Shown: piece after piece, positions 26,581-56,889 of the stretch | Numbering within the stretch: position 1 is the first letter of the stretch | Layout of the letters: the number at the start of each line of letters is the position of its first letter | Notes under the pieces: model-generated | Told to the model about the DNA's origin: nothing | The model's input: the letters and a program-made list of their open reading frames with translations, nothing else | Database searches by the model: none | Position numbers and translations under genes: made by a program | From: Paraburkholderia ginsengiterrae | GTDB taxonomy: Bacteria > Pseudomonadota > Gammaproteobacteria > Burkholderiales > Burkholderiaceae | Direction: 5' to 3' | DNA length: 64,000 bases | NCBI RefSeq assembly: GCF_001645125.1 | Contig: NZ_LXKA01000265.1 | Location: 1-64,000, forward strand

Positions 26581-27156
26581 ATGGTTTTGCCACTCGATAA
26601 CAAGGCACACGTTGCAGTCGCTATAGGAAGCAAAGTTCGCGCGCTTCGCCAACGGCTCAAGCGCACGCTGGATGAAGTGGCAACAACCGCCGGGATTTCC
26701 AAGCCTTTTCTGTCGCAAGTTGAACGGGGTCACGCAACACCATCGATTACATCGCTAGTCGGTATTGCTCGAGCTTTAGGCGTCACGGTGCAGTACTTCG
26801 TCGACACGCCGACTGAAGACAAGTCGGTGCGTCGAGGAAGTGATTTGAAGTACTTCGGCTTTGACGGTAGCGCCAATCTTTTTGGCCGGCTCACGAATCT
26901 GTCGGTCGGCAGCCAGCTGGAAGTCATTCTCGTCAAGATGCCGGTGGGGCAGAACCCATCGGAGGTCACGACGCACGCGGGAGAAGAGTTTCTGTACGTG
27001 ATGAGCGGCCAGATCTCGCTCACGCTAGAAGGTACAACGTTCGTATTGCAGGCGGGTGACACGGCTCATTACGAGTCCACGGTACCGCACGCCTGGCATA
27101 ACACGGCCCGCGAAGAAGCAGTGCTTGTTTGGGTGGGCACGCCAAGATTGTTCTAG
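26581..27156 (+). CDS. XRE-type regulator with C-terminal cupin
   Basis: This 191-residue regulator starts at ATG 26581, 10 nt after AGGGG; a TTG at 26557 is a weaker option. The helix-turn-helix covers about 18-72 (LDEVATTAGISKPFLSQVER, then HATPSITSLVGIARALG). The cupin covers about 115-188 (THAGEEFLYVMSGQ and GDTAHYESTVPHAWHN). In this family the cupin senses a small ligand. It sits between the TonB cluster and the TonB-dependent receptor on the same strand, so the receptor is its most likely target. Confidence 0.9.
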   Translation: MVLPLDNKAHVAVAIGSKVRALRQRLKRTLDEVATTAGISKPFLSQVERGHATPSITSLVGIARALGVTVQYFVDTPTEDKSVRRGSDLKYFGFDGSANLFGRLTNLSVGSQLEVILVKMPVGQNPSEVTTHAGEEFLYVMSGQISLTLEGTTFVLQAGDTAHYESTVPHAWHNTAREEAVLVWVGTPRLF

Positions 27157-27537
27157 TGCCGTACTCCCTGTTTTTTTCGTGAGAGCGGTCGTTTCACATT
27201 TGTAAGCATTACTTAATGTTCGGCCGGATGTTTGAGCTGCAAAGGCTGCGCGTTGTCCTTCGTATCTGATGCAGCACAGCAGATGAAATTAGTTTGAAGG
27301 TGTTTTGATATTAATTTGTAATAAATTAGTAGTCCGATTTTGATCGACATGAAGAGCTCCGTCTATCTGGCTGTGATTGATATGCCGGCATGCCGTTGGC
27401 CGGTTTGACGAGCAGAAAAGAACACGGGGCGGCTTTGACGGAGCGCGGCGCGAAAGCGCCGTTTTTCAAGTGGAGAGGTTCATAAGACCTCTCTTCACAT
27501 ACTGCTGTGGCCTTACTGACGAGCGAGAAGGGGAAAA
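27157..27537. other. Leader and promoter region of the TonB-dependent receptor
   Basis: About 380 nt, with an AT-rich part at 27180-27340 likely to hold the promoter. It is followed by a terminator-like hairpin with a T run (27446-27466) and a second 7-bp hairpin (27473-27493). The ribosome binding site AAGGGG lies just before the ATG at 27538. Confidence 0.5.
27446..27466 (+). terminator. Terminator-like hairpin in receptor leader
   Basis: CGGCGC and GCGCCG form a perfect 6-bp stem around a GAAA tetraloop and are followed by TTTTT. This is a canonical intrinsic terminator form. It lies 71 nt upstream of the receptor start, so it may either end upstream transcription or act as an attenuator. 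Confidence 0.6.
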
Positions 27538-30285
27538 ATGAAACAAAGGGCATTGGCGCTGGCCATCAAAAGAATAATCTGGGCTGAACTGGCGTTGTCG
27601 GCCGCAATCGCCGTTCCGGCGTTTGCGCAAAGCCAGCCGGCCACGACCGGAGATGCAGCGGCCGCGACGACGACGGAAAGCAAACCCGCTGCTGCGGCTG
27701 CGGCTCCGGCAGCCGCATCGGGCGCCGCAGCGACTTCCGCGGAAGGCAGCGCTGCTGGCACCACGGGCAAGGGGAACGTCCAGCAACTGAAGAAGTTTGA
27801 AGTGACCGGCTCGCTGATTCGCAGCTCCGACAAGGTCGGCTTCAATCAGGTTCAGACGGTTTCCCAGAAAGAAATTCAGAACAGCGGTGCCACGACGGTT
27901 GCAGACTTCCTGCGCGACACCGCCGCCAACTCCGCCAATAGCTGGAGCGAAGGCCAGGCCGGCAACTTTGCCGCGGGCGCGGCGGGTATCGCCCTGCGCG
28001 GCCTCAGCGAAAAGTACACGCTGGTGCTGGTGGACGGACAGCGCGCGGCGCCGTTCGCGTTCTTCTCGAACAGCGTCGACTCGTTCTTCGACCTGAACAC
28101 GCTGCCGCTGAACTCGATCGACCGGATCGAAATCGTGAAGACCGGTGCAGTGTCGCAGTACGGCTCGGACGCCGTCGCGGGCGTGGTCAACATCATCACG
28201 AAACACAACTACCAGGGGCTGACGCTCGACGGCAGCTACGGCAGCGCCATCAACGGCGGCGGCGGCGCGGGCGCGACCAAGTTCAGCGCACTGGGCGGCT
28301 TCGGCGACCTCAACTCCGATCGCTTCAACGTGACGGCGGCGGCCAGCTACTACAAGTCGAACGGCATCACGCTCGCGGACCGCGACTCGACGCGCAACCA
28401 GGACTTCACGAATCAGGCAGGCGGGTTCTCGCTGCTCGGGCCGTCGTACTGGAACCTGCCTGGCGGCGGGGTGCAGGCGCTAAACAACTGCCCGTTTGGC
28501 GGCTCGGTGCGTCCGGCAGCCACCAACTCGCTGACGGCGGGATCGGCCGGCACGGTCTGCGGCTTGAACACCGCCGAAGGCACGTCCATCGCGCCGATGA
28601 TGGACCGTCTGAACGCGAAGATTCACGCTGACTTCAAGATCAACGATCAGACCACCGCGTTCGCGGACTTCCTCGTCAGCGACAACCACACCACCACGAA
28701 CGATGGTCTGTGGGGCAACGTTGTCGGCAATCCGCAAGCCCCCGCGCTGGTGTATAACCCGCAGACGAAGCTGCTGAGCCCGTTCAACTTCACTGTGCCG
28801 GCGGGCAATCCGTACAACCCGTTCGGTGTGGCCACGCCGCTCACGTATGCCTTCCCGAATACGATCGCGGAGAAGACGGATTCCGTGTACTGGCGCGCGT
28901 CTACGGGCGTCAAGGGATCGTTTAACCTGCCGAACGGTGAATGGGATTGGGCGTCGTCGATCAGCCATTCGCAAAGCACGGTTTCGAACACCTACACGAA
29001 CCAGATCAATTCCTCCGTCCTGAATGACATCTACCAGAACGGCACGCTGAATTTCGCGAATCCGGCCGCTACGCCGAACGCGTTCAACGGGCTGTACATG
29101 GACGCGAACAACCTGGGTATCTCGAAGCTCGATACGGTCGACGCAACGCTGTCGACACCGGAACTCTTCCATCTGCCGGCGGGTGACGTGGGTCTCGGCT
29201 TCGGTGCGCAGTTCACGCACCAGAGCGAAACGATGAATCCGGGTGGGGCGTTCGCAGACGGCCTCGTCATCAACCCGAATCTCCAGACGGTGGACGGCCA
29301 GCGCAACGTTGCGGCTGTGTACTACCAGGTCGACGTTCCAATCATCCACAACCTGACGTTCAGCCAGTCGGGCCGTTACGACCACTACAGCGATGTCGGT
29401 GGTGCGTTCTCGCCGCGCTTCGCGCTGCGTTATCAACCGGTTCAGGCGCTGACGATGTACACGTCGTACAGCCGCGGCTTCCGCGCACCGACGTTCGTCG
29501 AGAACAGCAAGTCGCAAACGATCGGTCTCCAGGTGGATCCGGCCACTGGCCAGAACTACACGTCGATCACGGAGGGCAACCCGAACCTGTCGCCGGAGCG
29601 CACGAAGAACTTCAACATCGGCTTCGAACTGTCGCCGACGCGTACGACCGATGTGGGCTTCGACTGGTACAAGATCCGCGTGGATAACGTGATCGGCCAG
29701 GGTACGCCTTCGCAGATCGTCACGGACGCCAACGGCAACCTCCTGTACAAGGTGATTCCGTATTCGAACCTGGGCTACCTCGACACGAACGGTTTTGAAG
29801 GCACGTTCCGCCAGGCACTGCCGACGAAGACCGCCGGTACGTTCACCCTGTCGGCCGACTGGGCGTATGTGGACAGCTTCAAGATCGGCTTCCCGGGTGC
29901 AGCTCCGGTGAATGGCGCGGGTAACAACTTCACCATCACTCAGCCGTTCGGCGGCAGCTTCCCGCGCTGGAGAGGCAACACCACGCTGGACTGGACGTAT
30001 CACAAGTTCGACGCAGCGCTCACCTGGCAGTTCACGGGTCCGTACGCGCAGAACCTGTTGCCCCAGCCGAACAAAGTGGGTTCGTACAGCCAGTTCAACC
30101 TGATGATGACGTACACCGGCATCAAGAACTGGACGATCTATGGCGGCATCAACAACATCTTCAACCGTACGCCGCCGTACGATCCGATCTTCGCGAACGG
30201 TACGCTGAATCAGACGGGCTACGACGAGTCGCTGTATTCGTACATCGGCCGTTTCGCCCAGATCGGCGCAACCTACAAGTTCTAA
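27538..30285 (+). CDS. TonB-dependent outer membrane receptor
   Basis: This 915-residue receptor has a signal peptide (about 1-30, ending AFAQ) and an Ala/Thr-rich linker (about 33-80). A TonB-box-like FEVTGS segment at about 85 is followed by the plug domain with LRGLSEKYTLVLVDGQRAAP and SAVAGVVNIIT-type motifs (about 95-220). A large beta-barrel follows, ending in the aromatic C-terminal TYKF typical of outer membrane proteins. The barrel resembles the large oligosaccharide/peptide-type TonB receptors rather than classical siderophore receptors. It lies just upstream of a peptide ABC importer, TldD/E and acetyltransferases, which hints at a peptide-like substrate. Confidence 0.93.
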   Translation: MKQRALALAIKRIIWAELALSAAIAVPAFAQSQPATTGDAAAATTTESKPAAAAAAPAAASGAAATSAEGSAAGTTGKGNVQQLKKFEVTGSLIRSSDKVGFNQVQTVSQKEIQNSGATTVADFLRDTAANSANSWSEGQAGNFAAGAAGIALRGLSEKYTLVLVDGQRAAPFAFFSNSVDSFFDLNTLPLNSIDRIEIVKTGAVSQYGSDAVAGVVNIITKHNYQGLTLDGSYGSAINGGGGAGATKFSALGGFGDLNSDRFNVTAAASYYKSNGITLADRDSTRNQDFTNQAGGFSLLGPSYWNLPGGGVQALNNCPFGGSVRPAATNSLTAGSAGTVCGLNTAEGTSIAPMMDRLNAKIHADFKINDQTTAFADFLVSDNHTTTNDGLWGNVVGNPQAPALVYNPQTKLLSPFNFTVPAGNPYNPFGVATPLTYAFPNTIAEKTDSVYWRASTGVKGSFNLPNGEWDWASSISHSQSTVSNTYTNQINSSVLNDIYQNGTLNFANPAATPNAFNGLYMDANNLGISKLDTVDATLSTPELFHLPAGDVGLGFGAQFTHQSETMNPGGAFADGLVINPNLQTVDGQRNVAAVYYQVDVPIIHNLTFSQSGRYDHYSDVGGAFSPRFALRYQPVQALTMYTSYSRGFRAPTFVENSKSQTIGLQVDPATGQNYTSITEGNPNLSPERTKNFNIGFELSPTRTTDVGFDWYKIRVDNVIGQGTPSQIVTDANGNLLYKVIPYSNLGYLDTNGFEGTFRQALPTKTAGTFTLSADWAYVDSFKIGFPGAAPVNGAGNNFTITQPFGGSFPRWRGNTTLDWTYHKFDAALTWQFTGPYAQNLLPQPNKVGSYSQFNLMMTYTGIKNWTIYGGINNIFNRTPPYDPIFANGTLNQTGYDESLYSYIGRFAQIGATYKF

Positions 30286-30313
30286 CGCCTGCCTGATTGG
30301 GCTGAAGAGTGCG

Positions 30314-30358
30314 CCGCTCCGGTTCCATGCAAGTTGGGAACCGGAGCGGTGTTTTTTT
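30314..30358 (+). terminator. Strong intrinsic terminator after the receptor gene
   Basis: A 13-bp stem (30314-30326 with 30337-30349; CCGCTCCGGTTCC and its complement) is followed by GT and seven T. This is the best intrinsic terminator in the window. It separates the receptor from yejA, so the transporter operon needs its own promoter or read-through. Confidence 0.9.
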
Positions 30359-30396
30359 GGCGACGCATCATAGTGCGGTAGTGCAGGCCGGCTGCC

Positions 30397-32364
30397 GTGG
30401 CAATGAACCGATGCGCACCGTATGAGCTGATGAAAAGAATGATGAATTCCGGACCGCTGCGCGCGCACGACGCCGTCAGATGCTTATTCGTCGCGGTGCG
30501 CCGCGCCATGAGCATCGCATTGGCCGCCGCGCCTGGCGCACTGGCGGCGTTCGGTGCGATACCGGTGGCCGTGCAGGCCAGCCCGTCCATCGCGCAGTAT
30601 GACCAACCGAAATACCCCGCCGATTTCACGCATTTCGATTACGCGAATCCCGACGCGCCGGCCAACGGCACGATGAGTTTCGAGAACTACAACGAACTGC
30701 AAACCTACGATTCACTGAATCCGTTTCTGGTGCGTGGCGCACCCGCGCCGGACATCCAGAATCTGATGTTCGATACGCTGATGCAGCGTAGCTGGGATGA
30801 ACTGGCCTCCGAGTATCCGTTGATCGCGGACGACGTGGAGGTGGCCGCCGACCTGAATTCGGCGACATTCCATATCAATCCCGCCGCGCGCTTTTCCAAT
30901 GGCGACCCGATCACCGCCGCGGACGTCAAATATTCGTTCGAAACGCTGACGAGTCCGCAGGCCTCGCCGCTTTTCAATGCGCAGTTCTCGGTGATCAAAA
31001 GTGCGACCGTGATCGACAAGAACACGATTCGCTTCGATTTCAAGCGGGCAGAGCGCGACGCGCCGCTGATTGCAGGCGATCTGCCGATTTTCTCGCCGAA
31101 GTGGGGCATGCAGCCCAATGGAAAGCGCTTGCCGTTCGACCAGATCGCCACCATGCCGCCGATCAGCAGCGGTGCCTATCTGATCGAAGAGCGCAAGAAC
31201 GACAAGCAGATCGCGTATCGCCGCAATCCTGACTACTGGGCGGCGAACTTGCCGTCGCGGCGCGGCATGTTCCGCTTCGAGCGCATTACGTTCAAGCTGT
31301 ATCGCGACCATTACACGCAACTCGAAGCGTTCAAGGCGGGTGACGCGGACACTATCGTCGAATACAGCGCGACGCAATGGGCGCGCAAATACGTCGGCAA
31401 GAACTTCGACAATGGTATGTTGAAGAAAGGCGACTTCGCCGATGGTCCCGCGCAGATGCAAGGCATGCTGATGAATCTGCGCAAGCCGATGTTCCAGGAC
31501 CCGCGTGTGCGCCACGCGTTGACCATGGCGTTCGACTACGACTGGATGAACCGGATGATGTTCTACGGTCAATACCGGCGCACCAGCAGCTATTTCGAAG
31601 CGAGTCCGTTCGGCGCGACCGGCATGCCGAGCCCGAAGGAATTGGCGTTGCTCGAGCCGTTAAGAGGCAGCGTGCCGCCGGAAGTGTTCGGCCCGATGCT
31701 GAAGCAGCCCGACACGATCGCACCGAATTCGTTGCGCGGCAATCTGCGGGTAGCGCGCGATCTGCTGGCGCAAGCCGGCTGGCACTATCGCGACGGCGCA
31801 TTGCGCGACGCCAACGGTACGCCGATGACAATCGAGATCATGGACGATCAGCCCGGCATGGACCGGCTGATTCTGCCGTACATGCAGGCGCTCGGCATGC
31901 TCGGCATCCAGGCGCACATGCGCGAGATCGACAGCGCGCTATACCAGAAGCGCCTCGACAATTTCGAATACGACATGACCACTTTCATCTACCCGCCGGT
32001 GACGATTCCCGGCGCGGAGTTGACGCGCCGCTTCGGCAGTGCGGCTGCGTCGGAAGTCGGATCTGAAAACTATCCGGGCATCCGCTCGAAAGCCGTCGAC
32101 TCGCTGATTCATTCCGCCCTGTCCGCCAACACGCTCGACGATCTGGAAGCGGCAACCCGCGCGCTGGATCGCGTGCTGATCAACTCGTTCTACCTCGTGC
32201 CGGAGTACTACGCACCGGGCGCGCGGATCGGCTACAAATCGACGCTCGGCTATCCGTCCAAGGTGCCGATGTCCTATCAATACGAAGACTGGGTCATCGA
32301 TTACTGGTACGACAAGGCGCCGCCTGCCCAGACCGCATCTTCCACCCCGGCTACGGCCCATTGA
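30397..32364 (+). CDS. yejA: Peptide/microcin C-type ABC transporter substrate-binding protein
   Basis: This solute-binding protein of up to 655 residues belongs to family 5 (peptide/nickel binding) and is closest to YejA. After a long leader ending in an AVQA signal cleavage site (about residue 60), the mature protein begins PSIAQYDQPKYPADFTHFDY. It includes the typical YDSLNPFLVRG, ADVKYSFETL and RVRHALTMAFDYDWMN motifs. The GTG at 30397 gives the longest form; internal ATGs at 30403, 30430 and 30439 are possible. YejA-type proteins deliver peptides, including microcin C and other peptide antibiotics, to the inner membrane importer. The permease gene follows 8 nt later. Confidence 0.9.
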   Translation: MAMNRCAPYELMKRMMNSGPLRAHDAVRCLFVAVRRAMSIALAAAPGALAAFGAIPVAVQASPSIAQYDQPKYPADFTHFDYANPDAPANGTMSFENYNELQTYDSLNPFLVRGAPAPDIQNLMFDTLMQRSWDELASEYPLIADDVEVAADLNSATFHINPAARFSNGDPITAADVKYSFETLTSPQASPLFNAQFSVIKSATVIDKNTIRFDFKRAERDAPLIAGDLPIFSPKWGMQPNGKRLPFDQIATMPPISSGAYLIEERKNDKQIAYRRNPDYWAANLPSRRGMFRFERITFKLYRDHYTQLEAFKAGDADTIVEYSATQWARKYVGKNFDNGMLKKGDFADGPAQMQGMLMNLRKPMFQDPRVRHALTMAFDYDWMNRMMFYGQYRRTSSYFEASPFGATGMPSPKELALLEPLRGSVPPEVFGPMLKQPDTIAPNSLRGNLRVARDLLAQAGWHYRDGALRDANGTPMTIEIMDDQPGMDRLILPYMQALGMLGIQAHMREIDSALYQKRLDNFEYDMTTFIYPPVTIPGAELTRRFGSAAASEVGSENYPGIRSKAVDSLIHSALSANTLDDLEAATRALDRVLINSFYLVPEYYAPGARIGYKSTLGYPSKVPMSYQYEDWVIDYWYDKAPPAQTASSTPATAH

Positions 32365-32372
32365 GGCTCAGC

Positions 32373-33425
32373 ATGCTTGCCTACATTCTCAGACGTTTGC
32401 TATTGATGGTGCCGACTCTGCTCGGCGTCGTGACCCTGACCTTTGTCGTCACGCAGTTCGTGCCGGGTGGGCCGGTCGAACAGGTGATGACGCAACTCCG
32501 CCACGGCACTGGCCGTGGCGGAGAGGCGGGGGCGGGTGGCGGCGGTTATCACGGCAGCCAGGGCGTCGATCCGCAGCAGATCGAGCAGATCAAGAAGCAG
32601 TTCGGCTTCGACAAGCCGCCGCTCGAACGCTACGTGCTGATGCTCAAGCATTACGCGACTTTCGATCTCGGCCAGTCCTACTACCAGCACGAAAGCGTGT
32701 GGGCCGTCATCAAATCGAAGCTTCCGGTGTCGATCACGCTCGGCTTATGGACGGTGATGCTCACCTATCTGATATCGGTGCCGCTGGGCATCGCGAAAGC
32801 GGTGCGCAACGGTTCACGCTTCGATACCGTCACGAGTGTTCTGGTGCTTGCCGGCTATGCGATTCCTGGTTTCGTGCTCGGCGTGCTGCTCCTGATGCTC
32901 TTTGGCGGCGGCACGTTCTGGCAGGTGTTTCCCATGCGCGGCCTGACGTCGGATAACTTCAACGACCTCAGCGTGTTCGGCAAGGTACTCGACTATCTCT
33001 GGCACATCGTGCTGCCGGTCACGGCCTCGGTGGTGGGCAACTTTGCGATCGTGACGATTCTGACCAAGAACACCTTTCTCGAAGAGATCGGCCGCCAGTA
33101 CGTGCTGACCGCGCGCGCCAAGGGCGCGCCGGAGCGAGACGTGCTGTGGAAGCACGTGCTGCGCAATGCCGCGATTCCCTTGCTGACCGGTTTGCCGGCG
33201 GCCTTCGTCGGGGCGTTCCTGAACGGCAATCTGCTGATCGAAACGCTGTTCTCGCTCGACGGCATGGGCCAACTGTCATACGACTCGGTGATTCGCCGCG
33301 ATTATCCGGTCGTGCTGGGTTCGTTGTTTCTGTTCACGCTGATTGCCCTCGTAACCAAACTCATTGCTGACGTCTGCTATGTCCTCGTCGACCCCCGCAT
33401 CCAATTCAACCGCCTGGACCACTGA
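32373..33425 (+). CDS. yejB: ABC transporter permease YejB-type
   Basis: This 350-residue inner membrane permease of the peptide importer class starts at ATG 32373. It has about six membrane helices, starting MLAYILRRLLLMVPTLLGVV, and a binding-protein-dependent transport motif (EEIGRQYVLTARAKGAPERD). A Gly-rich insertion lies at about 45-65, as in YejB relatives. It works with the YejE-type permease and YejF ATPase. Its 3' end overlaps the next gene by 47 nt. Confidence 0.92.
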   Translation: MLAYILRRLLLMVPTLLGVVTLTFVVTQFVPGGPVEQVMTQLRHGTGRGGEAGAGGGGYHGSQGVDPQQIEQIKKQFGFDKPPLERYVLMLKHYATFDLGQSYYQHESVWAVIKSKLPVSITLGLWTVMLTYLISVPLGIAKAVRNGSRFDTVTSVLVLAGYAIPGFVLGVLLLMLFGGGTFWQVFPMRGLTSDNFNDLSVFGKVLDYLWHIVLPVTASVVGNFAIVTILTKNTFLEEIGRQYVLTARAKGAPERDVLWKHVLRNAAIPLLTGLPAAFVGAFLNGNLLIETLFSLDGMGQLSYDSVIRRDYPVVLGSLFLFTLIALVTKLIADVCYVLVDPRIQFNRLDH

Positions 33426-34494
33426 GTCGTCCGGCGTGGCGCACGCGGCATCGCCGTCGCCGTGGCGGCGTACGTGGCTGCGCTTCAAGCAGCAGCGTCT
33501 GGGCTACTGGAGCCTCGTGATCTTCGTGTCGCTCTTCGCCATCAGCCTGCTTGGCGAAGTGCTGTCCAACGACCGGCCTCTGGTCGTCCGTTACAACGGG
33601 CAGTACTATTTCCCGATTGTGAAGGACTACTCCGAGACGCTGTTCGGCGGAGATTTTCCGGCACGAGCGAATTACCTCGACCCGTATATCCGTTCGCGGC
33701 TCGAGTCGAATGGCAACTTCGCGATCTATCCGCCGAATCATTTCCACTACGACACGATCGACTACTTCGCCGCCCATCCGTATCCGGCACCTCCCACTAC
33801 GAGCAACTGGCTCGGCACGGACCAGTTTGGCCGCGATGTGCTCGCGCGGCTGCTGTATGGCTTCCGGTTGTCCGTGCTGATGGCGTTGGCGCTCACTGTC
33901 TCCGGTGTATTGGTCGGCGTGCTGACCGGCGCGGTGCAGGGCTTTTACGGCGGGCGCACCGATCTGATCGGCCAGCGCTTGTGTGAAATCTGGAGCTCGA
34001 TGCCCGACCTGTATCTGCTGATCATCTTCGCATCGATCTTCGAGCCGACGCTGTGGCTGCTATTCATTCTTCTGTCGATGTTCGGCTGGCTCGCGTTGTC
34101 GGACTACGTGCGCGCCGAATTCCTGCGCAACCGTTCGCTCGATTACGTGAAGGCGGCACGCACCATGGGTCTGAGCAACTGGCAGATCATGTGGCACCAC
34201 GTGTTGCCCAACAGCCTGACGCCGGTGATTACCTTCCTGCCATTCCGCATGAGCGCTGCGATTCTCTCGCTGACCAGCCTTGACTTTCTGGGTCTAGGTG
34301 TACCGCCGCCCACGCCGAGCCTCGGCGAACTGCTTCAGGAGGGCAAGAACAATCTCGACGCGTGGTGGATCTCGATCTCGGCATTCGCCGCGCTGGTGAT
34401 CACGCTGTTGCTGTTGACGTTCATGGGCGACGCATTGCGCAATGCGCTCGATACGCGCTCGCGTGGTTCGGCTTTTGGCGGAGGTCCGCGATGA
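33379..34494 (+). CDS. yejE: ABC transporter permease YejE-type
   Basis: This 371-residue second permease starts at ATG 33379, inside the end of yejB (47-nt overlap). A Ser/Pro-rich N-terminus leads into the first membrane helix near 36-57. A large periplasmic loop (about 60-150) follows, then about five more helices with the DYVKAARTMGLSNWQIMWHHV coupling motif. The translational start could be a little further downstream, for example before WRRTWLRFKQQRLGYWSLVI. It overlaps the ATPase gene by ATGA. Confidence 0.92.
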   Translation: MSSSTPASNSTAWTTESSGVAHAASPSPWRRTWLRFKQQRLGYWSLVIFVSLFAISLLGEVLSNDRPLVVRYNGQYYFPIVKDYSETLFGGDFPARANYLDPYIRSRLESNGNFAIYPPNHFHYDTIDYFAAHPYPAPPTTSNWLGTDQFGRDVLARLLYGFRLSVLMALALTVSGVLVGVLTGAVQGFYGGRTDLIGQRLCEIWSSMPDLYLLIIFASIFEPTLWLLFILLSMFGWLALSDYVRAEFLRNRSLDYVKAARTMGLSNWQIMWHHVLPNSLTPVITFLPFRMSAAILSLTSLDFLGLGVPPPTPSLGELLQEGKNNLDAWWISISAFAALVITLLLLTFMGDALRNALDTRSRGSAFGGGPR

Positions 34495-36131: not shown

Positions 36132-36148
36132 ACTCATATGGGAAGAGC

Positions 36149-37585
36149 ATGATTGACGAACGTTGGGCGCAAGCCGCCCGCACGCTGACAAGCCGCGCAT
36201 CGTTCTGGTCGCTGCGCATCGTCGACGAACAGATCGACGATCACGAAGTGCGCAACGACATCGCCCAGCCGTTGCGTACCGTGCGCGATCGCGGCGCCAT
36301 GCTGATCGCTTGGGTGGGTGCGGGGGCCGGCTATGCGGCCACCGCGAATCTGTCGGCAGCGGGCTTGCAGGCGGCGCTCGATATCGCCACCGCGCGAGCG
36401 GAAGCCAGCGCCGCCTGGTCGCTGATCGATCATCGCGAAGTGGCGCGGCCCGTGGCGAGCGGGCACTATGAGTCGCCGAATGCGCAGCACGCGCTGCCGA
36501 GCCGCGCCGAATGGCTCGACCGCCTCAGCGTGGAGTGCGCCGGTGCGAATCTCGATGCGAAGATTGTCGAGCGCGTCGCGGCTGTGCAGATCACGCATAC
36601 GGATCAGCTTTACATGACCGGCGACGGCGTGCGCATCGACCAGCAATTCCGCTTTGTCATGCCGCAGTTGAGCGTGGCGGCACATGCCAATGGCGACACC
36701 CAGGTCCGCACGCTCGGCGGCAATTACGGCACGCTCGGACAGGGCGGGATGGAAATCCTCGCGCGCTTCGGCTTCGACGGTTCGGGTGCGCGCGTCGCCA
36801 ACGAAGCGCTGCAATTGCTCGCCGCGCCGAATTGTCCTTCGGGCAAGCGCGATCTGCTGCTCATGCCCGATCAGATGATGCTGCAGATTCACGAGTCGAT
36901 TGGCCACCCGCTCGAACTCGACCGGATTCTCGGCGACGAGCGCAACTTCGCGGGCTGGAGTTTCGTGAAGCAGGACATGTTCGGCTCGTACCAGTACGGC
37001 TCGGAACTGCTGAACGTGACATTCGATCCGGAGCTGCGCGAAGAAGCCGCGGCCTATGCGTTCGACGACGACGGCACCGCGGCGCACAAGCAATATCTGA
37101 TACGCAACGGCGTGCTCGAACGTCCGCTCGGCGGCGCGCTGTCGCAGCAACGCGCGCATATGTCCGGCGTCGCGAATTCGCGCGCGTCGAACTGGAATCG
37201 TCCGCCGATCGACCGCATGGCGAATCTGAATATCGAACCCGGCGAGCAGTCACTGGAGGAGATGATCGGCAACATCGAACATGGCATTCTGATGCGCACC
37301 AATACGTCGTGGTCGATCGACGACCATCGCAACAAGTTTCAGTTCGGCTGCGAATTCGGCCACCTGATCGAGAACGGCAAGCTCACGCAGGTGGTCAAGC
37401 AGCCGAACTATCGCGGCATTTCCGCGAACTTCTGGCGCAGCCTGAGCGCGGTGGGCAATGCCGCCACCCGCGAGGTGTACGGCACCTCCATGTGCGGCAA
37501 AGGTGAACCGGCGCAGATCATTCGTGTCGGGCATGCGTCGCCGGCTTGCGTGTTCAGCAATATCGACGTGTTCGGAGGCGCATGA
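36149..37585 (+). CDS. TldD-like metallopeptidase
   Basis: This 478-residue protein of the TldD/PmbA family carries the metal-binding HExxxH motif (MLQIHESIGHPLELDR, near residues 248-253), the zinc site of the active TldD subunit. TldD/TldE pairs digest peptides and mature or release modified peptides such as microcin B17. This protein is divergent from housekeeping TldD and is encoded directly behind a peptide importer. The next gene overlaps it by ATGA and lacks the motif, fitting an active/inactive heterodimer. Confidence 0.88.
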   Translation: MIDERWAQAARTLTSRASFWSLRIVDEQIDDHEVRNDIAQPLRTVRDRGAMLIAWVGAGAGYAATANLSAAGLQAALDIATARAEASAAWSLIDHREVARPVASGHYESPNAQHALPSRAEWLDRLSVECAGANLDAKIVERVAAVQITHTDQLYMTGDGVRIDQQFRFVMPQLSVAAHANGDTQVRTLGGNYGTLGQGGMEILARFGFDGSGARVANEALQLLAAPNCPSGKRDLLLMPDQMMLQIHESIGHPLELDRILGDERNFAGWSFVKQDMFGSYQYGSELLNVTFDPELREEAAAYAFDDDGTAAHKQYLIRNGVLERPLGGALSQQRAHMSGVANSRASNWNRPPIDRMANLNIEPGEQSLEEMIGNIEHGILMRTNTSWSIDDHRNKFQFGCEFGHLIENGKLTQVVKQPNYRGISANFWRSLSAVGNAATREVYGTSMCGKGEPAQIIRVGHASPACVFSNIDVFGGA

Positions 37586-38946
37586 TGAGCCAGTTCATCT
37601 CGACGCGCGCCGCTACGTCGGTGGATTGGCAGCGGCACTTCACGTCGCTCGCCGAGGCTATCGAGCGTTTGCAGCAGGGGAGTGAAATCACGCTCAGTTC
37701 GTTTGCCGGCGAGCAGTCCGATTTCATCCGCTTCAATGCGGGCAAGGTGCGGCAGACCGGCAGCGTGGCGCAGGGCAAGTTGACCTTGCGTTTGATCGAC
37801 GGCGCACGTCAGGCTTATTCCACACTTACCGTGTGCGGCGATCTGCAACAGGACCTCGACGAGGTGCGCGCCGCGCTCGCCACGTTGCGTGACGGATTGC
37901 GCGATGCAGCGGACGATCCGCATCTGCTGTTCGACACGTCGAAATGGGAGCGCACCACGCAGCGCTCCGGCAAGTTGCCGGACCCCGAGAGCCTCACGCG
38001 CGTCGTCGCGGAATGTGCGCGAGGCCTCGATTTCGTGGGCTTTTACGCCGGCGGCACGATTGTGCGCGGCTTTGCCTCGACGAGCGGCAGCCGCGGCTGG
38101 TACGAGGTGGACAACTTCAATTTCAGCTGGTCGCTGTACGACCCAAGCGGCCGCGCCATCAAAACGAGCTATGCCGGCGACGACTGGAGCGACACGGTAT
38201 TCGCGCGCAAAGTCGAGCAGGCCGCTGCGCGGCTCGCGGTGCTCGCACGCACGCCGCGCGCGTTGGCGCCGGGGCGTTACCGTTCGTATCTGGCACCCGC
38301 CGCGCTCTCGGAACTGCTCGGCGTTGCGGCATGGAGCGGCTTTTCCGCGCGGGCCCAGGCGAGTTCGCGCAGCGAGTTGTACAAGCTGCATGTGGGAGAA
38401 ATCGTAGTCGACCCGCGCGTGACGATCAGCGAAGATCTGACACTCGGCATCACCCCCGGCTTCAACGACGACGGCTATCTGCGCGAAAGCGTTCCACTGA
38501 TCGAAGCCGGCCGCAGCGCCGAGCGCCTCACCAATGCGCGCAGCGCGCGCGAGTACGGCTTGACGCCGAATGGCGCGCTGGCAAGCGAGTCGCCGGCCGC
38601 GCTGTCCATGCTCGCGGGCGATCTGCCGGAAGAAGAGATACTGGCGAAACTCGGTACCGGCCTTTATATCGGCAACCTCTGGTACGTGAACTTCTCTGAC
38701 CGGATGAATTGCCGCCTCACCGGCATGACGCGTTTCGCGACCTTCTGGGTCGAGAACGGCGAGATCGTCGCACCGCTCGAAGCCATGCGTTTCGACGACA
38801 GCCTGTACAGGTTGCTCGGCAGCGAACTGGAACAACTCGGCGCACAAGCCGAACTGCTATTGAGCGACTCGACATGGGGCGAGCGTGCCACGGGTGGCAT
38901 GCAATTGCCCGGCATTCTGGTGAGGTCGTTCGAATTGACGTTATGA
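37582..38946 (+). CDS. TldE/PmbA-like partner protein
   Basis: This 454-residue TldD/PmbA family protein starts at ATG 37582, or at ATG 37585 immediately after. No HExxxH is seen, as in the TldE subunit, which completes the active site and channel of the TldD/E protease. C-terminal features such as ITPGFNDDGY, GLYIGNLWYVNFSDRMNCR and TRFATFWVENGEIVAPL are typical of the family. Overlap with the TldD-like gene indicates coupled translation and complex formation. Confidence 0.87.
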   Translation: MMSQFISTRAATSVDWQRHFTSLAEAIERLQQGSEITLSSFAGEQSDFIRFNAGKVRQTGSVAQGKLTLRLIDGARQAYSTLTVCGDLQQDLDEVRAALATLRDGLRDAADDPHLLFDTSKWERTTQRSGKLPDPESLTRVVAECARGLDFVGFYAGGTIVRGFASTSGSRGWYEVDNFNFSWSLYDPSGRAIKTSYAGDDWSDTVFARKVEQAAARLAVLARTPRALAPGRYRSYLAPAALSELLGVAAWSGFSARAQASSRSELYKLHVGEIVVDPRVTISEDLTLGITPGFNDDGYLRESVPLIEAGRSAERLTNARSAREYGLTPNGALASESPAALSMLAGDLPEEEILAKLGTGLYIGNLWYVNFSDRMNCRLTGMTRFATFWVENGEIVAPLEAMRFDDSLYRLLGSELEQLGAQAELLLSDSTWGERATGGMQLPGILVRSFELTL

Positions 38947-38950
38947 GCCT

Positions 38951-39532
38951 ATGGATCGATACGAAAATACCAAGCCGGAATCTGAGAGCTTGCCCGAGGG
39001 ACTGACACTGCGTACGTTGCACGTGTCGGACGCAGAGCAATACCACGCCTTGCATGAGTTGCCGATGGTGGTGAACGGCAATCCGCACGTGCCGTTTCGG
39101 CCGATTGCCAGCACACGCGAGTACATCGAGAAACTCGCGCCCCCGGAAATCGCGTTGGTGGCAACGATCGGCGATACGCTGGTCGGCGCCGCGGAGCTCA
39201 CCCCTTTCAAGGGGCGCCGTGCGCATGCCGCATCGCTTGGCCTTGGCGTGCACGACGCATGGCACCGGCGCGGCATCGGCCGTGCGTTGATGGCCGAACT
39301 GATCGATCTGGCGGACAACTGGCTCGGTCTGCGCCGTCTCGAACTCCACGTCTTCACGGATAACCACGCGGCGCTCGCGCTATACCGCAAGTTCGGCTTC
39401 GAGATCGAAGCGCACCAGCGTGGCGCGGCGTTGCGCCGCGGCGTGCTGATCGACTGCTATTTCATGGCGCGGCTGCGTGAAGCTGCGCCGTGGATGTCGC
39501 CGCCTTCGGCAACCCATCTTGCAGCGGAATAG
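38951..39532 (+). CDS. GNAT family N-acetyltransferase (first of a tandem pair)
   Basis: This 193-residue acetyltransferase begins 4 nt after the TldE-like gene. The acetyl-CoA loop is seen in WHRRGIGRALMAELIDLA (about residues 98-116). A GLRRLELHVFTDNHAALALY stretch and YRKFGFE complete the fold. It is clearly related to the next gene, with about the same order of motifs throughout. In microcin C-like systems an acetyltransferase detoxifies the processed drug; that analogy is an inference from the neighbours. Confidence 0.88.
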   Translation: MDRYENTKPESESLPEGLTLRTLHVSDAEQYHALHELPMVVNGNPHVPFRPIASTREYIEKLAPPEIALVATIGDTLVGAAELTPFKGRRAHAASLGLGVHDAWHRRGIGRALMAELIDLADNWLGLRRLELHVFTDNHAALALYRKFGFEIEAHQRGAALRRGVLIDCYFMARLREAAPWMSPPSATHLAAE

Positions 39533-39536
39533 GACC

Positions 39537-40085
39537 ATGAACGCAGAAACGTTGCCAGACGGCCTTGCGCTCGACAATCGTATTACGGTTCGAGCCCTCG
39601 AATCGTCCGACATGGACGCCTTCGCCGAAATCATGAGCCTGCCCGGCGTGCGGCGCGGCACGCTGTCGCTCGGCTACCGCAACCCCGTTCAGCTCAAGGC
39701 GTGGTGCGAACAGCGCCTCAAGCACGGCGTGAGCGTCTGCGCGACCATTGGCGGACGCATGGTCGGCCACGCCGGGCTGGGGATTCACGAGCGGAGCCGC
39801 GCGCACGGCGCGGATTTAGGCGTGGCGGTGCACGACGCGTATCACGGGCGAGGTGTCGGCTCTGCGCTTCTGCAAGCACTGATCGATTGCGCCGATGCGT
39901 CGCTCGGCTTGCGCCGAATCGAGCTCACGGTCTTTATCGACAATGAGCCGGCCATTGCGCTGTATCGCAAGTTCGGCTTTGTCGAAGAAGGACGCTCGCG
40001 CGGTTTTGCCATGCGCGACGGCGTGCTGGCGGACTGCTTGCATATGGCCCGCCTGGTCGATGCGCCGCGGCTCCAGACAAACTGA
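39537..40085 (+). CDS. GNAT family N-acetyltransferase (second of a tandem pair)
   Basis: This 182-residue acetyltransferase starts at ATG 39537, 4 nt after the previous stop. The acetyl-CoA motif is YHGRGVGSALLQALIDCA, followed by LGLRRIELTVFIDNEPAIAL and YRKFGFVEEG. It is a paralogue of the gene just upstream, probably by tandem duplication and divergence. The N-terminal halves, which shape the acceptor site, differ more than the C-terminal halves, so the two may act on different amines. Confidence 0.88.
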   Translation: MNAETLPDGLALDNRITVRALESSDMDAFAEIMSLPGVRRGTLSLGYRNPVQLKAWCEQRLKHGVSVCATIGGRMVGHAGLGIHERSRAHGADLGVAVHDAYHGRGVGSALLQALIDCADASLGLRRIELTVFIDNEPAIALYRKFGFVEEGRSRGFAMRDGVLADCLHMARLVDAPRLQTN

Positions 40086-40098
40086 ACGGATGATCTGA

Positions 40099-43000
40099 GT
40101 GCCATTTTTCTTCATCGACCGCCCGGTCTTTGCCTGGATCGTCGCGCTCGCCATTGTCGTGGCGGGCGCGCTGGCTATTCCGCAACTGCCGGTGGCGCAG
40201 TATCCGCGCCTCGCGCCACCGCGCATCGTGATTTCCACCACGTATCCAGGGGCGTCGACCGAAGTGGTGGATGCCAACGTCGGCAGCATTATCGAGGAGA
40301 GTCTCGATGGCGCCGACAATATGCTGTACTACGAAACAACCAGCGACAACCTCGGCGAACTTGAAATCGACGCGACGTTCGCGCCCGGCACCAATCCCGA
40401 TCTCGCGCTGGTCGACATCCAGAACCGCCTCAAGCAGGTCGAGTCGCGTTTGCCGCAGCAGGTCGTGCAGCAGGGCATCACGGTCTTCAAGGCGGCCAAC
40501 ACGTTCCTGATGCTGGTCGCGCTCACCTCGACTGATGGCTCGCGCGATTCCGTGCAATTGAGCGACTATCTGAGCCGCTATGTGTTGCGAGAACTGAAGC
40601 GGGCGCCGGGCGTCGGCGCGGCCGAACTGTGGGACGCCGACGAGGCGCTGCGCATCTGGCTCGACCCGATGAAGTTGCGCGAATACAACCTCGGCGCGGC
40701 CGACGTGAACGCCGCCATCGCCGCGCAGAACGCCACCGTCACGGCGGGCACGCTGGGCGATGCGCCGTTCGTGCCGGGGCAGCAATTGACCGCGTCGGTG
40801 AGCGTGAAGGGCCAGCTCATCTCGCCGGAGGAGTTCGGCCAGATCGTGCTGAAAGCGCTGCCGGACGGTTCGGCCGTGCGCTTGCGCGACGTCGCGCGGG
40901 TCGAACTTGGGCGCGACAATTACTCATTTTATTCGCGCCTGAACGGCAAGGCGGCGGCCACGGTCGGCATTCAGCTCGGGCCGCGCGGCAATGCGCTCGA
41001 AACGTCGAATGCGATTCGCGCGCGGTTGGCCGAGTTGTCGAAAGGACTGCCGCCGGGCGTGTCCGTTGAAATCCCCTTCGATAACGCGCATTTCGTGCAG
41101 ATCGCCATTCGTGAAGTGCTGGTCACGCTCGCGGAGGCGGTCGTGCTGGTGTTCTTCGTGATGTGGCTGTTCCTGCGCGACCTGCGCTACACGCTGGTGC
41201 CGACTGTCGTGATTCCCGTCACGCTGATGGGCGCGTTTCTCGCCATGTATGTATGCGGGCTGTCGATCAACGTGTTCACGATGTTCGGACTCGTGCTCGC
41301 CATCGGGATTCTCGTCGACGATGCGATCGTGGTGGTGGAGAGCGTGCATCGCGTGATGGAAGAGGAGGGCCTGCCGCCGCGCGAGGCCACTCGCAAGGCG
41401 ATGACGCAGATCGGCGGCGCGATTGTCGGCGTGACCGCGGTGCTCACCGCCGTGTTCGTGCCCATGGCCTTCTTTCCCGGCGGCGTGGGCGGCATCTACC
41501 GGCAATTCGCGGTGGCGATGATTGCGTCGATGCTGGTGTCGTCGTTCATGGCCTTGTCGTTGACGCCTGCGTTGTGCGCGAATCTGCTGAAAGCGCACAC
41601 GCATTCGGTACGTGAACGCGATGCGCGCCGGGGCGTGTTGGGTTTCGCGGCGCGCGCGGCAAGCCGTTTCACCTCCGGCTTCGATCACGCCGCGCGTGGC
41701 TATCGCGGCATGACCGCGCGCACGCTGCGCCGCATCGGCCCAATGCTGGCGGTCTACGCCGTGCTGGTGGGCGTGTGCGGTGTGCTCTACTGGCAGATGC
41801 CCGGCGGGTTTCTGCCGAGCGAAGATGAAGGCCAATTGCAGGTCATGATGCAGTTGCCGGCGGGCGCCACGCAGGCGCGTTCCCAGGCCGTGGTGCAACG
41901 CGTGGAAAAGATTCTGCACATGGAGCCTGCCATCGCCAATGTGACGAGTGTGGTCGGCTGGAGTTTCGCCGGCAGCGGTCAGAACGTGGCCATGTGTTTC
42001 GTCGAACTGAAAGACTGGGGCAAGCGCGACACTGACGCGCAGGCCCTGCGCGACCGGCTCAACGAGCAGTTCGAGAAGATCATCGAGGGCGACGTGGAGG
42101 CGCAACTGCCGCCGTCGGTGCCGGGTATCGGCCATTCGGACGGTTTCGTGTTCCGCCTGGAAGATCGCGGCGGCGTGGGGCTCGCTGCGCTGAAGGCCGC
42201 ACGCGAGCAATTGTTCACGCAGGCCAAAGCGAGTCCGGTGCTGACCTCCGTGCACTCCGAAGACCTGCCAGACGCGCCGCGCGTCGAACTGACCATCGAC
42301 CGCGCGAAAGCGTATGCGCTCGGCGTGCCGTTCGAACGTATCGCCGACGTGCTCGGCAGCACCTTCGGATCGACCTATATCGACGATTTCCCGACCGGTG
42401 GCCGCATGCGCCGCGTGGTGATCGCCGCCGACGCCGCCACGCGCATGACCGACGACGATCTGCTGAAGCTCGCCGTGCCCAATACCAGCGGCGGCATGGT
42501 GCCGCTTTCGGCGATCGCGGCGCGCAAGTGGACCATCGGTCCGGTGATGCTGACGCGCTACAACGGCTATCCGTCGCTCGACGTGAGCGGCCACGCGGCG
42601 CCGGGCTACAGTTCGGGCGCGGCTATGGCGGAAATGGAGCGACTTGCCGCTTCGTTGCCGGTCGGCGTCCAGTATGACTGGGTCGACGCCGCACGCGAGG
42701 AAACCGCGGCGGCGAAGCTCACGCCGCTCCTGATCGGCCTCTCGCTGCTGGCCGTGTTCATGGCGCTGGCCGCGCTGTACGAGAGCTGGACCATCCCGCT
42801 CGCGGTGCTGATGGTCGTGCCGCTCGGTGTGATCGGTGCGGTCGCCGCGGTGCTCCTACGCGGCATGCCCAACGACGTGTACTTCAAGGTCGGCATGATC
42901 ACGGTGATCGGTCTCGCGGCGAAGAACGCGATTCTGATCGTCGAGTTCGCGCGCGATCTGTACCGGCGCGGCCTGCCGTTGACGCGCGCGGTGACCGAAG

Positions 43001-43305
43001 CCGCGGGTGCGCGTTTCCGCCCGATCGTGATGACCTCGGCGGCGTTTCTGCTCGGCGTCGTGCCGCTCGTGGTGTCGAGCGGCGCCGGCGCGGAAAGCCG
43101 GCGCTCGATCGGCACTGGCGTCTTCGGCGGCGTGCTGGCGGCCACGCTGTTCGGGCTGGTGTTCGCGCCGGTCGCGTTCCACGCGGTCGCTTCGCTCACG
43201 CACGGCCGGCGGCGGCTGGCCGAACTGCGCCGCAAGCGCGACGCGCGGCGGGCCCGCCGTGCCGAGGTCGAAACCGCGTCGTTCGACGAATCGCCGATGG
43301 CATGA
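40099..43305 (+). CDS. RND efflux permease (HAE1-like)
   Basis: This 1068-residue inner membrane RND transporter starts at GTG 40099. It has twelve expected membrane helices and two large periplasmic loops. The proton relay residues line up with AcrB: D407 and D408 in LVDDAIVVVE, and K942 in AAKNAILIVEFA. No membrane fusion protein or outer membrane channel gene is adjacent, so it must borrow partners or act alone. It is the last gene of the Yej-TldDE-GNAT run, 13 nt after the second acetyltransferase, and is closed by a strong hairpin. Confidence 0.93.
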   Translation: MPFFFIDRPVFAWIVALAIVVAGALAIPQLPVAQYPRLAPPRIVISTTYPGASTEVVDANVGSIIEESLDGADNMLYYETTSDNLGELEIDATFAPGTNPDLALVDIQNRLKQVESRLPQQVVQQGITVFKAANTFLMLVALTSTDGSRDSVQLSDYLSRYVLRELKRAPGVGAAELWDADEALRIWLDPMKLREYNLGAADVNAAIAAQNATVTAGTLGDAPFVPGQQLTASVSVKGQLISPEEFGQIVLKALPDGSAVRLRDVARVELGRDNYSFYSRLNGKAAATVGIQLGPRGNALETSNAIRARLAELSKGLPPGVSVEIPFDNAHFVQIAIREVLVTLAEAVVLVFFVMWLFLRDLRYTLVPTVVIPVTLMGAFLAMYVCGLSINVFTMFGLVLAIGILVDDAIVVVESVHRVMEEEGLPPREATRKAMTQIGGAIVGVTAVLTAVFVPMAFFPGGVGGIYRQFAVAMIASMLVSSFMALSLTPALCANLLKAHTHSVRERDARRGVLGFAARAASRFTSGFDHAARGYRGMTARTLRRIGPMLAVYAVLVGVCGVLYWQMPGGFLPSEDEGQLQVMMQLPAGATQARSQAVVQRVEKILHMEPAIANVTSVVGWSFAGSGQNVAMCFVELKDWGKRDTDAQALRDRLNEQFEKIIEGDVEAQLPPSVPGIGHSDGFVFRLEDRGGVGLAALKAAREQLFTQAKASPVLTSVHSEDLPDAPRVELTIDRAKAYALGVPFERIADVLGSTFGSTYIDDFPTGGRMRRVVIAADAATRMTDDDLLKLAVPNTSGGMVPLSAIAARKWTIGPVMLTRYNGYPSLDVSGHAAPGYSSGAAMAEMERLAASLPVGVQYDWVDAAREETAAAKLTPLLIGLSLLAVFMALAALYESWTIPLAVLMVVPLGVIGAVAAVLLRGMPNDVYFKVGMITVIGLAAKNAILIVEFARDLYRRGLPLTRAVTEAAGARFRPIVMTSAAFLLGVVPLVVSSGAGAESRRSIGTGVFGGVLAATLFGLVFAPVAFHAVASLTHGRRRLAELRRKRDARRARRAEVETASFDESPMA

Positions 43306-44006
43306 CGGCGCAGCGCCGCCGTCACGCTCAACCGGCGGGCTGATTCGCCGCTTGAGCGGGGACGCCGCTCAAGCGGTTATTAAATCGTCTGATCTTTAAA
43401 TCCGGTCGCACCAGACGACCGGTTAAGTCATACAAATAAAAACCTGATGTTTCAATATAGAAACATTTTTCAAATGTTCGAGAAATGCGATTCGAAATTG
43501 TTAATTTGAATTGGCTCGATAAATCGCAATGAAATTGCATTGGATGAACAGATAAATTCCCGGTTTGCGAATAAAAGGTCTATTGATCGGTCATTATCCG
43601 GGAGGTTCGAAGTTCAAGTTTGAAACACTTTCGACACCAGTTCGGCTTACGATTCTCACAAACCGGGACTCATCCCGGCGCATTTGACTGACCCGCTGGA
43701 ACGCTTCAGGATTGAGGCTGCACAACGGTTTGCGGATTGTATCCGAGAGTGCTTCCGGTATGAATTGCCGTTTCACCACACTTGTCGCGTGTTGCCATGT
43801 GAAACGCGCTATATCGGTTTTCTTCATACCTTGCATTTCTTGACGAAAACTTCTTTTTTCAAATTTACTATAGCGAAGCATTCCGTTAGCATCACACATA
43901 ATACGTTAAGTGGCGGGTCGGAGAAATCTGCCGCGATAATCCAATCCGTTCATGTCGGCTGCTAACGGGAAACGGGGCTCACAACGTACGACATTAGGGA
44001 AAGATC
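43306..44006. other. AT-rich intergenic region before glxA-like gene
   Basis: About 700 nt, much richer in A and T than its neighbours. It starts with the hairpin at 43348-43376. Short frames exist on both strands (about 100 codons at 43594-43899 minus), but none has recognisable features or a good ribosome binding site. The promoter of the GlxA-type regulator should lie near its right end. Confidence 0.45.
43348..43376 (+). terminator. Hairpin ending the RND operon
   Basis: CCGCTTGAGCGG and CCGCTCAAGCGG form a perfect 12-bp stem with a 5-nt loop, 42 nt after the RND stop codon. TTATTAAAT follows rather than a pure T run. It is likely the end of the long peptide-handling transcript. Confidence 0.75.
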
Positions 44007-51974: not shown

Positions 51975-51985
51975 CCGGGAGCGTC

Positions 51986-52930: not shown

Positions 52931-52952
52931 CGAAGACGCAAGGACAAACACC

Positions 52953-55194: not shown

Positions 55195-55202
55195 ACACGT
55201 AA

Positions 55203-55748
<546 letters not shown>

Positions 55749-55763
55749 ACCAACAGAATCTGT

Positions 55764-56786: not shown

Positions 56787-56836
56787 ACCGGCTCGGACAA
56801 CGCGCGTCACGTGTCATTGCCGCGTGCCGCTTTTTC

Positions 56837-56854: not shown

Positions 56855-56889
56855 ATTTCAACAAAAAAACACAGGGAAAAATAATTCAG

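Follow-up and report, generated by a model that had tools for sequence, protein, structure and literature searches.

Gene content of the island

We analysed a window of 64,000 nt from the 8.53 Mb genome of Paraburkholderia ginsengiterrae (contig NZ_LXKA01000265.1, positions 1 to 64,000 of the forward strand). The window contains an island of 16 genes, all on the forward strand, that runs from a TonB gene to the gene for an RND-type permease (22580-43305). We read this island as TonB-dependent peptide import joined to the peptide transporter YejABEF, with optional digestion, acetylation and efflux. Its genes and RNA elements are listed below with their lengths in amino acids (aa) where given and their supporting matches (E-values, or bit scores against model cut-offs).

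22580..23287, +, TonB energy transducer, 235 aa (PF03544 5.5e-18; TIGR01352 61.5 bits, cut-off 27.1)
23364..24269, +, ExbB/TolQ-type proton channel, 301 aa (PF01618 1.1e-32)
24282..24704, +, ExbD 1, 140 aa (PF02472 1.1e-28)
24812..25240, +, ExbD 2, 142 aa (PF02472 9.1e-26)
25250..26434, +, TPR protein with a signal-like N-terminus, 394 aa (PF13432 4.6e-9); co-occurs with the TonB set
about 26581..27156 (open frame from 26557), +, XRE-cupin transcription regulator, 191 aa (PF01381 8.7e-13; PF07883 3.8e-17)
27441..27537, +, structured RNA leader preceding the receptor gene, with two hairpins followed by conserved sequence as far as the start codon
27538..30285, +, TonB-dependent outer-membrane receptor (TBDT), 915 aa (PF07715 4.2e-19; PF00593 9.4e-42)
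30314..30349, +, terminator between receptor gene and yejA: 13-bp perfect stem, then a T-run
30430..32364, +, YejA-family peptide-binding protein (PF00496 2e-64; E. coli YejA 7z6f 4.1e-98)
32373..33425, +, YejB permease (NF011712 430.7 bits, cut-off 445)
33379..34494, +, YejE permease (NF011596 392.4 bits, cut-off 439)
34491..36131, +, YejF double ATPase (NF011713 621.9 bits, cut-off 834)
36149..37585, +, TldD-like metalloprotease subunit with HESIGH and CGKG motifs (PF19289 1.2e-31; PF01523 1.5e-4; 5nj5 2.9e-24)
37582..38946, +, TldE-like partner subunit lacking HExxxH (PF19289 1e-27; 5nj5_B 4.2e-4)
38951..39532, +, GNAT acetyltransferase 1 (PF00583 3.4e-20)
39537..40085, +, GNAT acetyltransferase 2 (PF00583 4.2e-20)
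40099..43305, +, RND permease, AcrB/AcrD-type (PF00873 1079.5 bits; NF000282 1330.7 bits, cut-off 1250)

By Pfam, the receptor has both plug and barrel, and TonB, ExbB and ExbD are all encoded upstream of it. The Yej genes comprise an SBP5 protein, two permeases and a double ATPase in the order A-B-E-F. The initial annotation had described the receptor and the nine genes that follow it as a system for peptide uptake, processing, acetylation and efflux. Open reading frames and Pfam confirm all ten genes at the positions it gave, and its spacing (no gap longer than 17 nt, otherwise overlaps) is borne out at all eight junctions from yejA to the RND gene. With the likeliest starts, yejA and yejB are 8 nt apart, yejB/yejE overlap by 47 nt, yejE/yejF by 4 nt and tldD/tldE by 4 nt, and the remaining gaps measure 17 nt (yejF-tldD), 4 nt (tldE-gnat1), 4 nt (gnat1-gnat2) and 13 nt (gnat2-RND). 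The run is therefore real, but it forms only the right part of a larger island whose true start lies about 5 kb further upstream; the dedicated TonB motor with its TPR protein, the XRE-cupin regulator and the RNA leader had been overlooked.

The terminator that had been placed 3' of the receptor gene is present in the window. A comparable terminator was found in 18 of 49 related loci with a loose scan and in 6 of 44 with a strict one, and is thus not a constant part of the island. The hairpin that had been said to close the run is also there (43351-43373) but lacks a T-run, and is therefore no typical intrinsic terminator. The island is flanked on the left by an open frame of 2002 aa in which UvrA domains are repeated (15645-21653), about twice the length of a normal UvrA, and on the right by a gene for an AraC-type regulator (44007-45002).

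The TldD-like protein carries HESIGH, aligned with the E. coli TldD motif, and CGKG; both motifs are intact in all 100 kept rows of the alignment (for motif counts and for the receptor comparisons below, the analysis retained genes of 85-115% of the window protein length, and some genomes are represented by two locus numbers). Scores against the NCBIfam TldD/PmbA equivalogs are low (93.1 against 635, 80.4 against 513 and 18.3 against 438 bits). By sequence, the pair belongs to the TldD/TldE family without being the equivalog, and it is a predicted peptidase heterodimer. E. coli TldD/E cuts unfolded peptides irrespective of their sequence (PMC5810440; here and below, statements from papers cited by PMC number refer to the available portions of those papers).

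The closest solved structures to the YejA-like protein are YejA-type proteins and the methanobactin-binding protein MbnE, while YejB, YejE and YejF all score below their NCBIfam cut-offs. E. coli YejA has a cavity of 8253 Å^3 and was crystallised holding an undecapeptide (PMC10924461). The two GNATs form a tandem pair (45% identical) and fall below every listed NCBIfam cut-off. Their best model is the YhhY model PRK10140 (107 bits, cut-off 236); the second-best for GNAT2 is the arsinothricin-resistance model ArsN1a (62 bits, cut-off 170). In the RND permease the DDA proton relay is retained in all 72 kept rows. No RND adaptor or outer-membrane channel was found among the predicted genes of the island. 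XRE-cupin regulators in Pseudomonas are local repressors of neighbouring metabolic genes: PsdR represses dipeptide uptake and a metallodipeptidase, and PA1884 represses a GNAT gene (PMC7901475).

Conservation in Burkholderiaceae

To describe how often the parts occur together we used 300 genomes drawn from the family, a less biased sample than loci selected through TldD. A YejA match at 1e-60 is present in 273 of these genomes, and 61 of the 300 have a close second Yej (Yej2; YejA at least 69% identical to that of the window); the more distant YejA copies are 49-55% identical among the matches listed. The TldD-like gene occurs in 41 drawn genomes and together with Yej2 in 32, that is, in 32 of the 61 Yej2 genomes against 9 of the 239 others (Fisher test, 2e-18, not tree-corrected).

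We fetched one Yej2 region from each of the 60 other genomes (L114-L173); 31 of these genomes have the TldD-like gene and 29 lack it. A TBDT is encoded in 59 of the 60, and at least one TonB, ExbB or ExbD gene in 58 (51 of the window type, seven of an unrelated type). The two regions without a motor are L138, which has Yej with neither TBDT nor motor, and L150, which meets a contig end. A motor that has been swapped for a non-homologous set, yet still stands beside Yej, argues that one is needed there. The XRE-cupin gene is present in 47 of the 60 regions. In four of the 13 regions without it (L151, L154, L155 and L170) the regulator lies downstream, past the fetched stretch, as is visible on identical contigs under other locus numbers (L069, L072, L073 and L063, respectively); it was not seen in the seven regions bearing the other motor set.

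The remaining parts are more variable. Among the 29 Yej2 regions without TldD, an RND gene occurs in 19, a POT-family carrier in two and a GNAT gene in one. The POT di/tripeptide carrier stands 3' of yejF, in the usual slot of the RND gene (loci L129 and L134). When loci with identical yejB were merged, 96 distinct Yej2 loci remained, 66 of which had enough downstream sequence (30 were too short). These 66 comprise 40 with TldDE, GNAT and RND, 11 with TldDE and RND, six with TldDE alone, six with RND alone, and single loci with TldDE and GNAT, with POT, and with none of these; the share with TldD is inflated because the loci were partly selected via TldD. In a scan with the TldD-like protein, whose nearest named carriers among the matches listed are Paraburkholderia, Yej genes adjoin TldD in 58 of 80 loci among those matches.

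The initial annotation had made its reading depend on the gene order being conserved in related genomes, and the order is kept there: peptide uptake and processing form one conserved, linked gene set. Its claim for acetylation and efflux stands in part, as GNAT and RND genes accompany TldDE in 40 of the 66 loci but each is missing elsewhere. GNATs and RND are thus add-ons. TldD/E, GNATs and RND are optional, while TBDT and TonB/Exb are near-constant beside Yej2. At two loci (L050 and L051) a TldD/TldE pair lies between uvrA2 and the AraC gene, a site shared with the island, with no Yej or other island parts.

A structured RNA leader precedes the receptor gene

The 97 nt directly 5' of the receptor start can form two hairpins that are conserved by compensatory change. 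In an alignment of 27 loci, 98.0% of base-pair cells hold standard pairs and 6 of the 11 pairs have changed on both sides. None of 500 shuffles reached any of the five measures used, and when the partner was slid by 1-3 columns as a control, pairing fell to only 44-51%. There was no Rfam match at the leader, and one sub-threshold Rfam match at 32496.

A covariance model matched the leader in 37 of the 45 regions searched (45 of the 60 Yej2 regions), including 23 of the 28 searched regions without TldD, none of which was used to build the model; it did not find the leader in L129, L132, L134, L136, L137, L159, L160 and L166. Outside the window, 38 of 39 matches end at most 3 nt from the start codon of a receptor of the same family (L173 is the exception), and the receptors behind those leaders are only 51-83% identical to the window receptor. 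The leader was found once in the P. ginsengiterrae genome and once in each of six genomes of the same genus. Four genomes of other genera gave one to three matches, with the extra matches weak except for a second strong one in G130, whose region L153 carries two such receptors.

We infer that the leader controls synthesis of the receptor. As an alternative, the palindrome in the leader was considered as an operator for the XRE-cupin regulator and rejected, since its arms vary in compensatory fashion and better fit an RNA hairpin. Pairing between leader and ribosome-binding site, suggested by a single-sequence fold, was also discarded: by eye, several rows of the alignment do not preserve the CCTT-AAGG pairing.

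Apparent exchange of receptors between close relatives

Receptor identity was bimodal among the 181 locus pairs whose YejB proteins share 97% identity or more: 37 pairs had receptors 55-65% identical, 144 had receptors at least 85% identical, and none fell between. Across those same pairs RND was never below 89%, TldD never below 90% and YejA never below 82% identity. Grouping 97 receptor rows at 70% identity gave nine types, the largest of which (61 rows) includes both Paraburkholderia and Burkholderia. In the pair L041/L043 (YejB 97%), receptor residues 1-60 are 87% identical and the remainder is 32-77% identical per block; the predicted signal peptide is kept and the receptor body is different. 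The simplest reading of these sequences is recombination of receptor alleles between close relatives, with the leader staying in place. Because receptors appear to be swapped between strains, the ligand probably varies by strain while the inner machinery is constant.

Probable separate assembly outside the family

A comparable gene complement is encoded on one strand of a Pseudomonas aeruginosa plasmid (CP124675.1, 252220-273755, 21.5 kb; L178), in the order TldD-TldE-ABC exporter-type protein-TonB-ExbB-ExbD-TBDT-YejA-YejB-YejE-YejF-adaptor (MFP)-RND-GNAT. Two more P. aeruginosa plasmids encode an identical TldD. Identities to the window proteins are 56% for TldD, 46% for TldE, 52% for YejB, 35% for YejA, 46% for RND, 29% for the TBDT, and 25 and 32% for the GNATs. 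The covariance model did not find the leader in this island. The plasmid island lies near a mercury-resistance operon.

We placed the plasmid copy in a YejB tree of 29 rows, built by a quick method with support from the Shimodaira-Hasegawa-like approximate likelihood ratio test (SH-aLRT) only. It groups among Pseudomonas Yej (support 97 for a group of five rows and 100 for eight), and the 13 Burkholderiaceae island copies form one group (97) within a Burkholderiaceae clade of 21 rows (100). The latter clade also holds housekeeping copies and a third clade, and the tree does not resolve the branching order of the three. Because the YejB copies group with their own lineages, the two islands would have been built around local Yej genes. 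The tree thus points to separate assembly of the island in Burkholderiaceae and in P. aeruginosa, and such likely convergent assembly suggests that the parts work together.

Related arrangements occur elsewhere. The gammaproteobacterium L229 has TonB-TBDT-SBP5-permeases-ATPase-TldD-TldE-M20 peptidase in a row (TonB, TBDT, SBP5 and M20 by Pfam, the remainder by tblastn and open frames), and here too the leader was not found with the covariance model. The M20 peptidase of L229, like the POT carrier of L129 and L134, fits the peptide theme. Smaller TBDT-Yej units were found in P. japonica (L277) and in the third Burkholderia/Paraburkholderia Yej clade (L280, L281 and L282), with ExbB in addition in L282.

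A proposed route for large peptides

We consider it on balance probable that the island works as a self-contained unit, driven by TonB, which takes up long extracellular peptides and digests them. The receptor, powered by the island's own TonB-ExbB-ExbD-ExbD-TPR motor, would carry peptides too big for porins into the periplasm, where the YejA protein would bind them and YejBEF would move them to the cytosol. TldD/TldE would then trim the unfolded peptides from the N-terminus. Released products could be harmful to the cell unless their amino groups are N-acetylated, which may be the task of the GNATs; the RND pump, with an adaptor and outer-membrane channel borrowed from elsewhere, may expel unwanted peptides or products. 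The XRE-cupin protein would keep the genes repressed as long as no peptide or breakdown product occupies its cupin, and the structured leader in the receptor mRNA could add control of the receptor. The sequences themselves show which parts are present, that they are packed like an operon and stay linked across genomes, and that the TldD motifs are intact; acetylation and efflux of products are proposed less surely than import and digestion. The strongest points of the proposal are the likely convergent assembly, the replacement of the motor and the leader RNA, and its weakest is the ligand.

A more specific version, which we put forward tentatively as possible rather than probable, is a modular importer. 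A swappable TBDT under its own leader RNA would serve as the outer-membrane gate of YejABEF, and a TldD/E-GNAT-RND add-on would digest, cap and expel toxic peptides; the same design would have been assembled separately in Burkholderiaceae and Pseudomonas.

Several observations weigh against import for nutrition and digestion as the purpose of the island. Two GNATs and an RND pump are unnecessary for plain nutrition, and 33 of the 72 RND rows fall outside a second, strict lysine pattern, so that this residue was assessed only in the others. The similarity of the window receptor to solved receptors lies mainly in the plug, and the terminator of the window may separate the receptor transcript from that of yejA. 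The TldD-like gene is missing from 29 of the 61 Yej2 genomes, and 22 of the 80 TldD loci among the matches listed stand without Yej. No Yej accompanies TldD/TldE in 24 of 25 gammaproteobacterial regions (several lie on short contigs; one of 26 regions, L193, was left out of the count) or in any of 20 Pseudomonas regions. TldD/E is therefore not essential to uptake and would have another job when alone. Finally, tree-aware tests on 64 of the 66 loci gave only four independent pairs each and nothing significant, both for GNAT with TldD (1.1 the same way, 0 the other) and for RND with TldD (2.0 against 1.0). Of 199 genomes from the same Pseudomonas group, 175 have the TldD-like gene, as do 27 of 369 genomes drawn across the class, that of P. 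ginsengiterrae included, and TldD/TldE appears to be a widespread module that was recruited into peptide-import islands.

The 2024 paper on the YejA structure states that ligands of about 11 residues exceed porins and must originate in the periplasm or enter by an unidentified outer-membrane system (PMC10924461). A TonB receptor wired to Yej, repeatedly and in separate lineages, could be the way in which large YejA ligands pass the outer membrane. If the proposal is true, TldD/E would gain a role in digesting imported peptides, the leader would be a candidate RNA for control of outer-membrane receptors in cis, and the island would point to a natural way in for peptides. Our literature search on the gene combination, which covered titles and abstract openings with subscription papers outside its scope, returned no description of such an island.

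Alternative explanations

The same parts could serve defence. A toxic peptide natural product would be imported as a Trojan horse and cut by TldD/E, its warhead amino acid would be acetylated by the GNATs, and RND would pump it out; the benefit would be to resist a competitor's antibiotic or to scavenge it. The best GNAT models (PRK10140, then ArsN1a for GNAT2, all below cut-off) are in keeping with this, as is the presence of GNAT and RND in the 40 loci with TldDE and in the P. aeruginosa island. Receptor exchange is what an arms race would be expected to produce, and YejABEF has been linked to microcin C sensitivity (PMC10924461) and admits phazolicin (PMC10128002). Immunity alone, however, would hardly justify keeping a costly TonB-driven importer, 8 of the 66 islands have neither GNAT nor RND, and the 16 island genes include none of biosynthetic appearance; we regard this explanation as unlikely. 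The parallel with microcin C drawn in the initial annotation is not supported: the 16 island genes include no adenylylating enzyme (the search did not extend to small precursor frames), and on the RimL model, relevant to self-protection, GNAT2 scores 20.2 bits against a cut-off of 184 and GNAT1 is not among the matches listed. A microcin C cluster, suggested by the combination of Yej and GNAT, was rejected on the same two grounds. Maturation of ribosomally synthesised and post-translationally modified peptides by TldD/E was likewise set aside, since no shared biosynthetic neighbour was seen when open frames near stand-alone pairs were inspected by eye (L050, L083, L108, L109, L208, L217, L245 and L255). 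The B. stagnalis plasmid copy has a radical-SAM/P450 stretch downstream; the window has no such genes there.

A TonB motor and a TBDT are also what uptake of a peptide siderophore or metallophore would require, with TldD/E cleavage or GNAT acetylation freeing the metal and RND recycling the carrier. Consistent with this, MbnE (5icq, 1.3e-96) and YejA proteins are about equally close to the YejA-like protein. We nevertheless consider such a role decidedly improbable. The 16 genes hold an XRE-cupin regulator instead of a sigma/anti-sigma pair, and Fur-like matches before tonB, the XRE gene and the TBDT gene are at shuffle level, a weak test without a positive control because a whole-genome scan with the strict E. 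coli consensus, allowing up to three mismatches, yielded a single site. Before the TBDT gene the best match to this consensus, again without a positive control, is 11 of 19 positions against a shuffle mean of 11.0; the remaining four gaps gave best matches of 8 to 12 of 19, unshuffled. A siderophore role of the island is unproven. It is very unlikely, in our view, that the genes are mere neighbours without joint function, in which case a favourable site would have gathered a stand-alone TldD/E pair, a second Yej and an island of TonB and TBDT genes. TldD/E does stand without Yej at the same uvrA2/AraC site in L050 and L051, and it is found apart from Yej in other genera too. Against this, a like combination occurs on the P. 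aeruginosa plasmid around a different Yej, and partly in L229, the genes are tightly packed with overlaps, and Yej2 is accompanied by a TBDT in 59 and by TonB/Exb genes in 58 of 60 regions.

Comparison with known systems

The island has the four YejABEF proteins of E. coli and S. meliloti in identical order, and its YejA-like protein matches solved E. coli YejA at 4.1e-98. It differs in being a second Yej besides a distant copy (49-55% YejA identity among the matches listed), in its linked TBDT and TonB motor, and in the scores of YejB, YejE and YejF under the NCBIfam cut-offs. In Agrobacterium, YejBEF-YepA does peptidoglycan recycling (PMC9790009); as a rival role for the island, such recycling would have no need of an outer-membrane receptor. 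The MbnT-MbnE system, in which methanobactin enters via MbnT and is bound by MbnE, also pairs a TBDT with a YejA-family binder for a peptide ligand (PMC7558416). In contrast to that system, the island has a complete YejBEF, its own TonB set, a protease, GNATs and RND, and a link to metal is unproven here.

E. coli TldD/TldE, which processes microcin B17, shares with the island pair HExxxH and a C-terminal Cys in TldD and a partner without the motif (PMC5810440), whereas the island pair is far under the equivalog cut-offs and is linked to import genes. The PsdR-DppA3-MdpA set of P. aeruginosa likewise places an XRE-cupin regulator beside a peptide transporter part and a metallopeptidase, but it handles di- and tripeptides, and neither a TonB-dependent receptor nor TldD/E is mentioned in the available portion of the source (PMC7901475). 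RagAB of Porphyromonas gingivalis is similar in its TonB-dependent peptide or protein import and its several alleles; it differs in having a receptor with a lid protein and in belonging to another phylum, and the available portion of the source mentions no Yej partner (PMC11817032).

Other features of the window

On the reverse strand, about 8 kb from the island, an SbmA/BacA-like transporter fused to an ATPase (12967-14736) is likely a second peptide importer. By eye, genes at 49666-58119 resemble those for tryptophan/kynurenine degradation (putative hydroxyanthranilate dioxygenase and kynureninase). AT-rich palindromes occur at 27309-27331 and at 43446-43467, the latter between the RND and AraC genes, where it is a possible operator.

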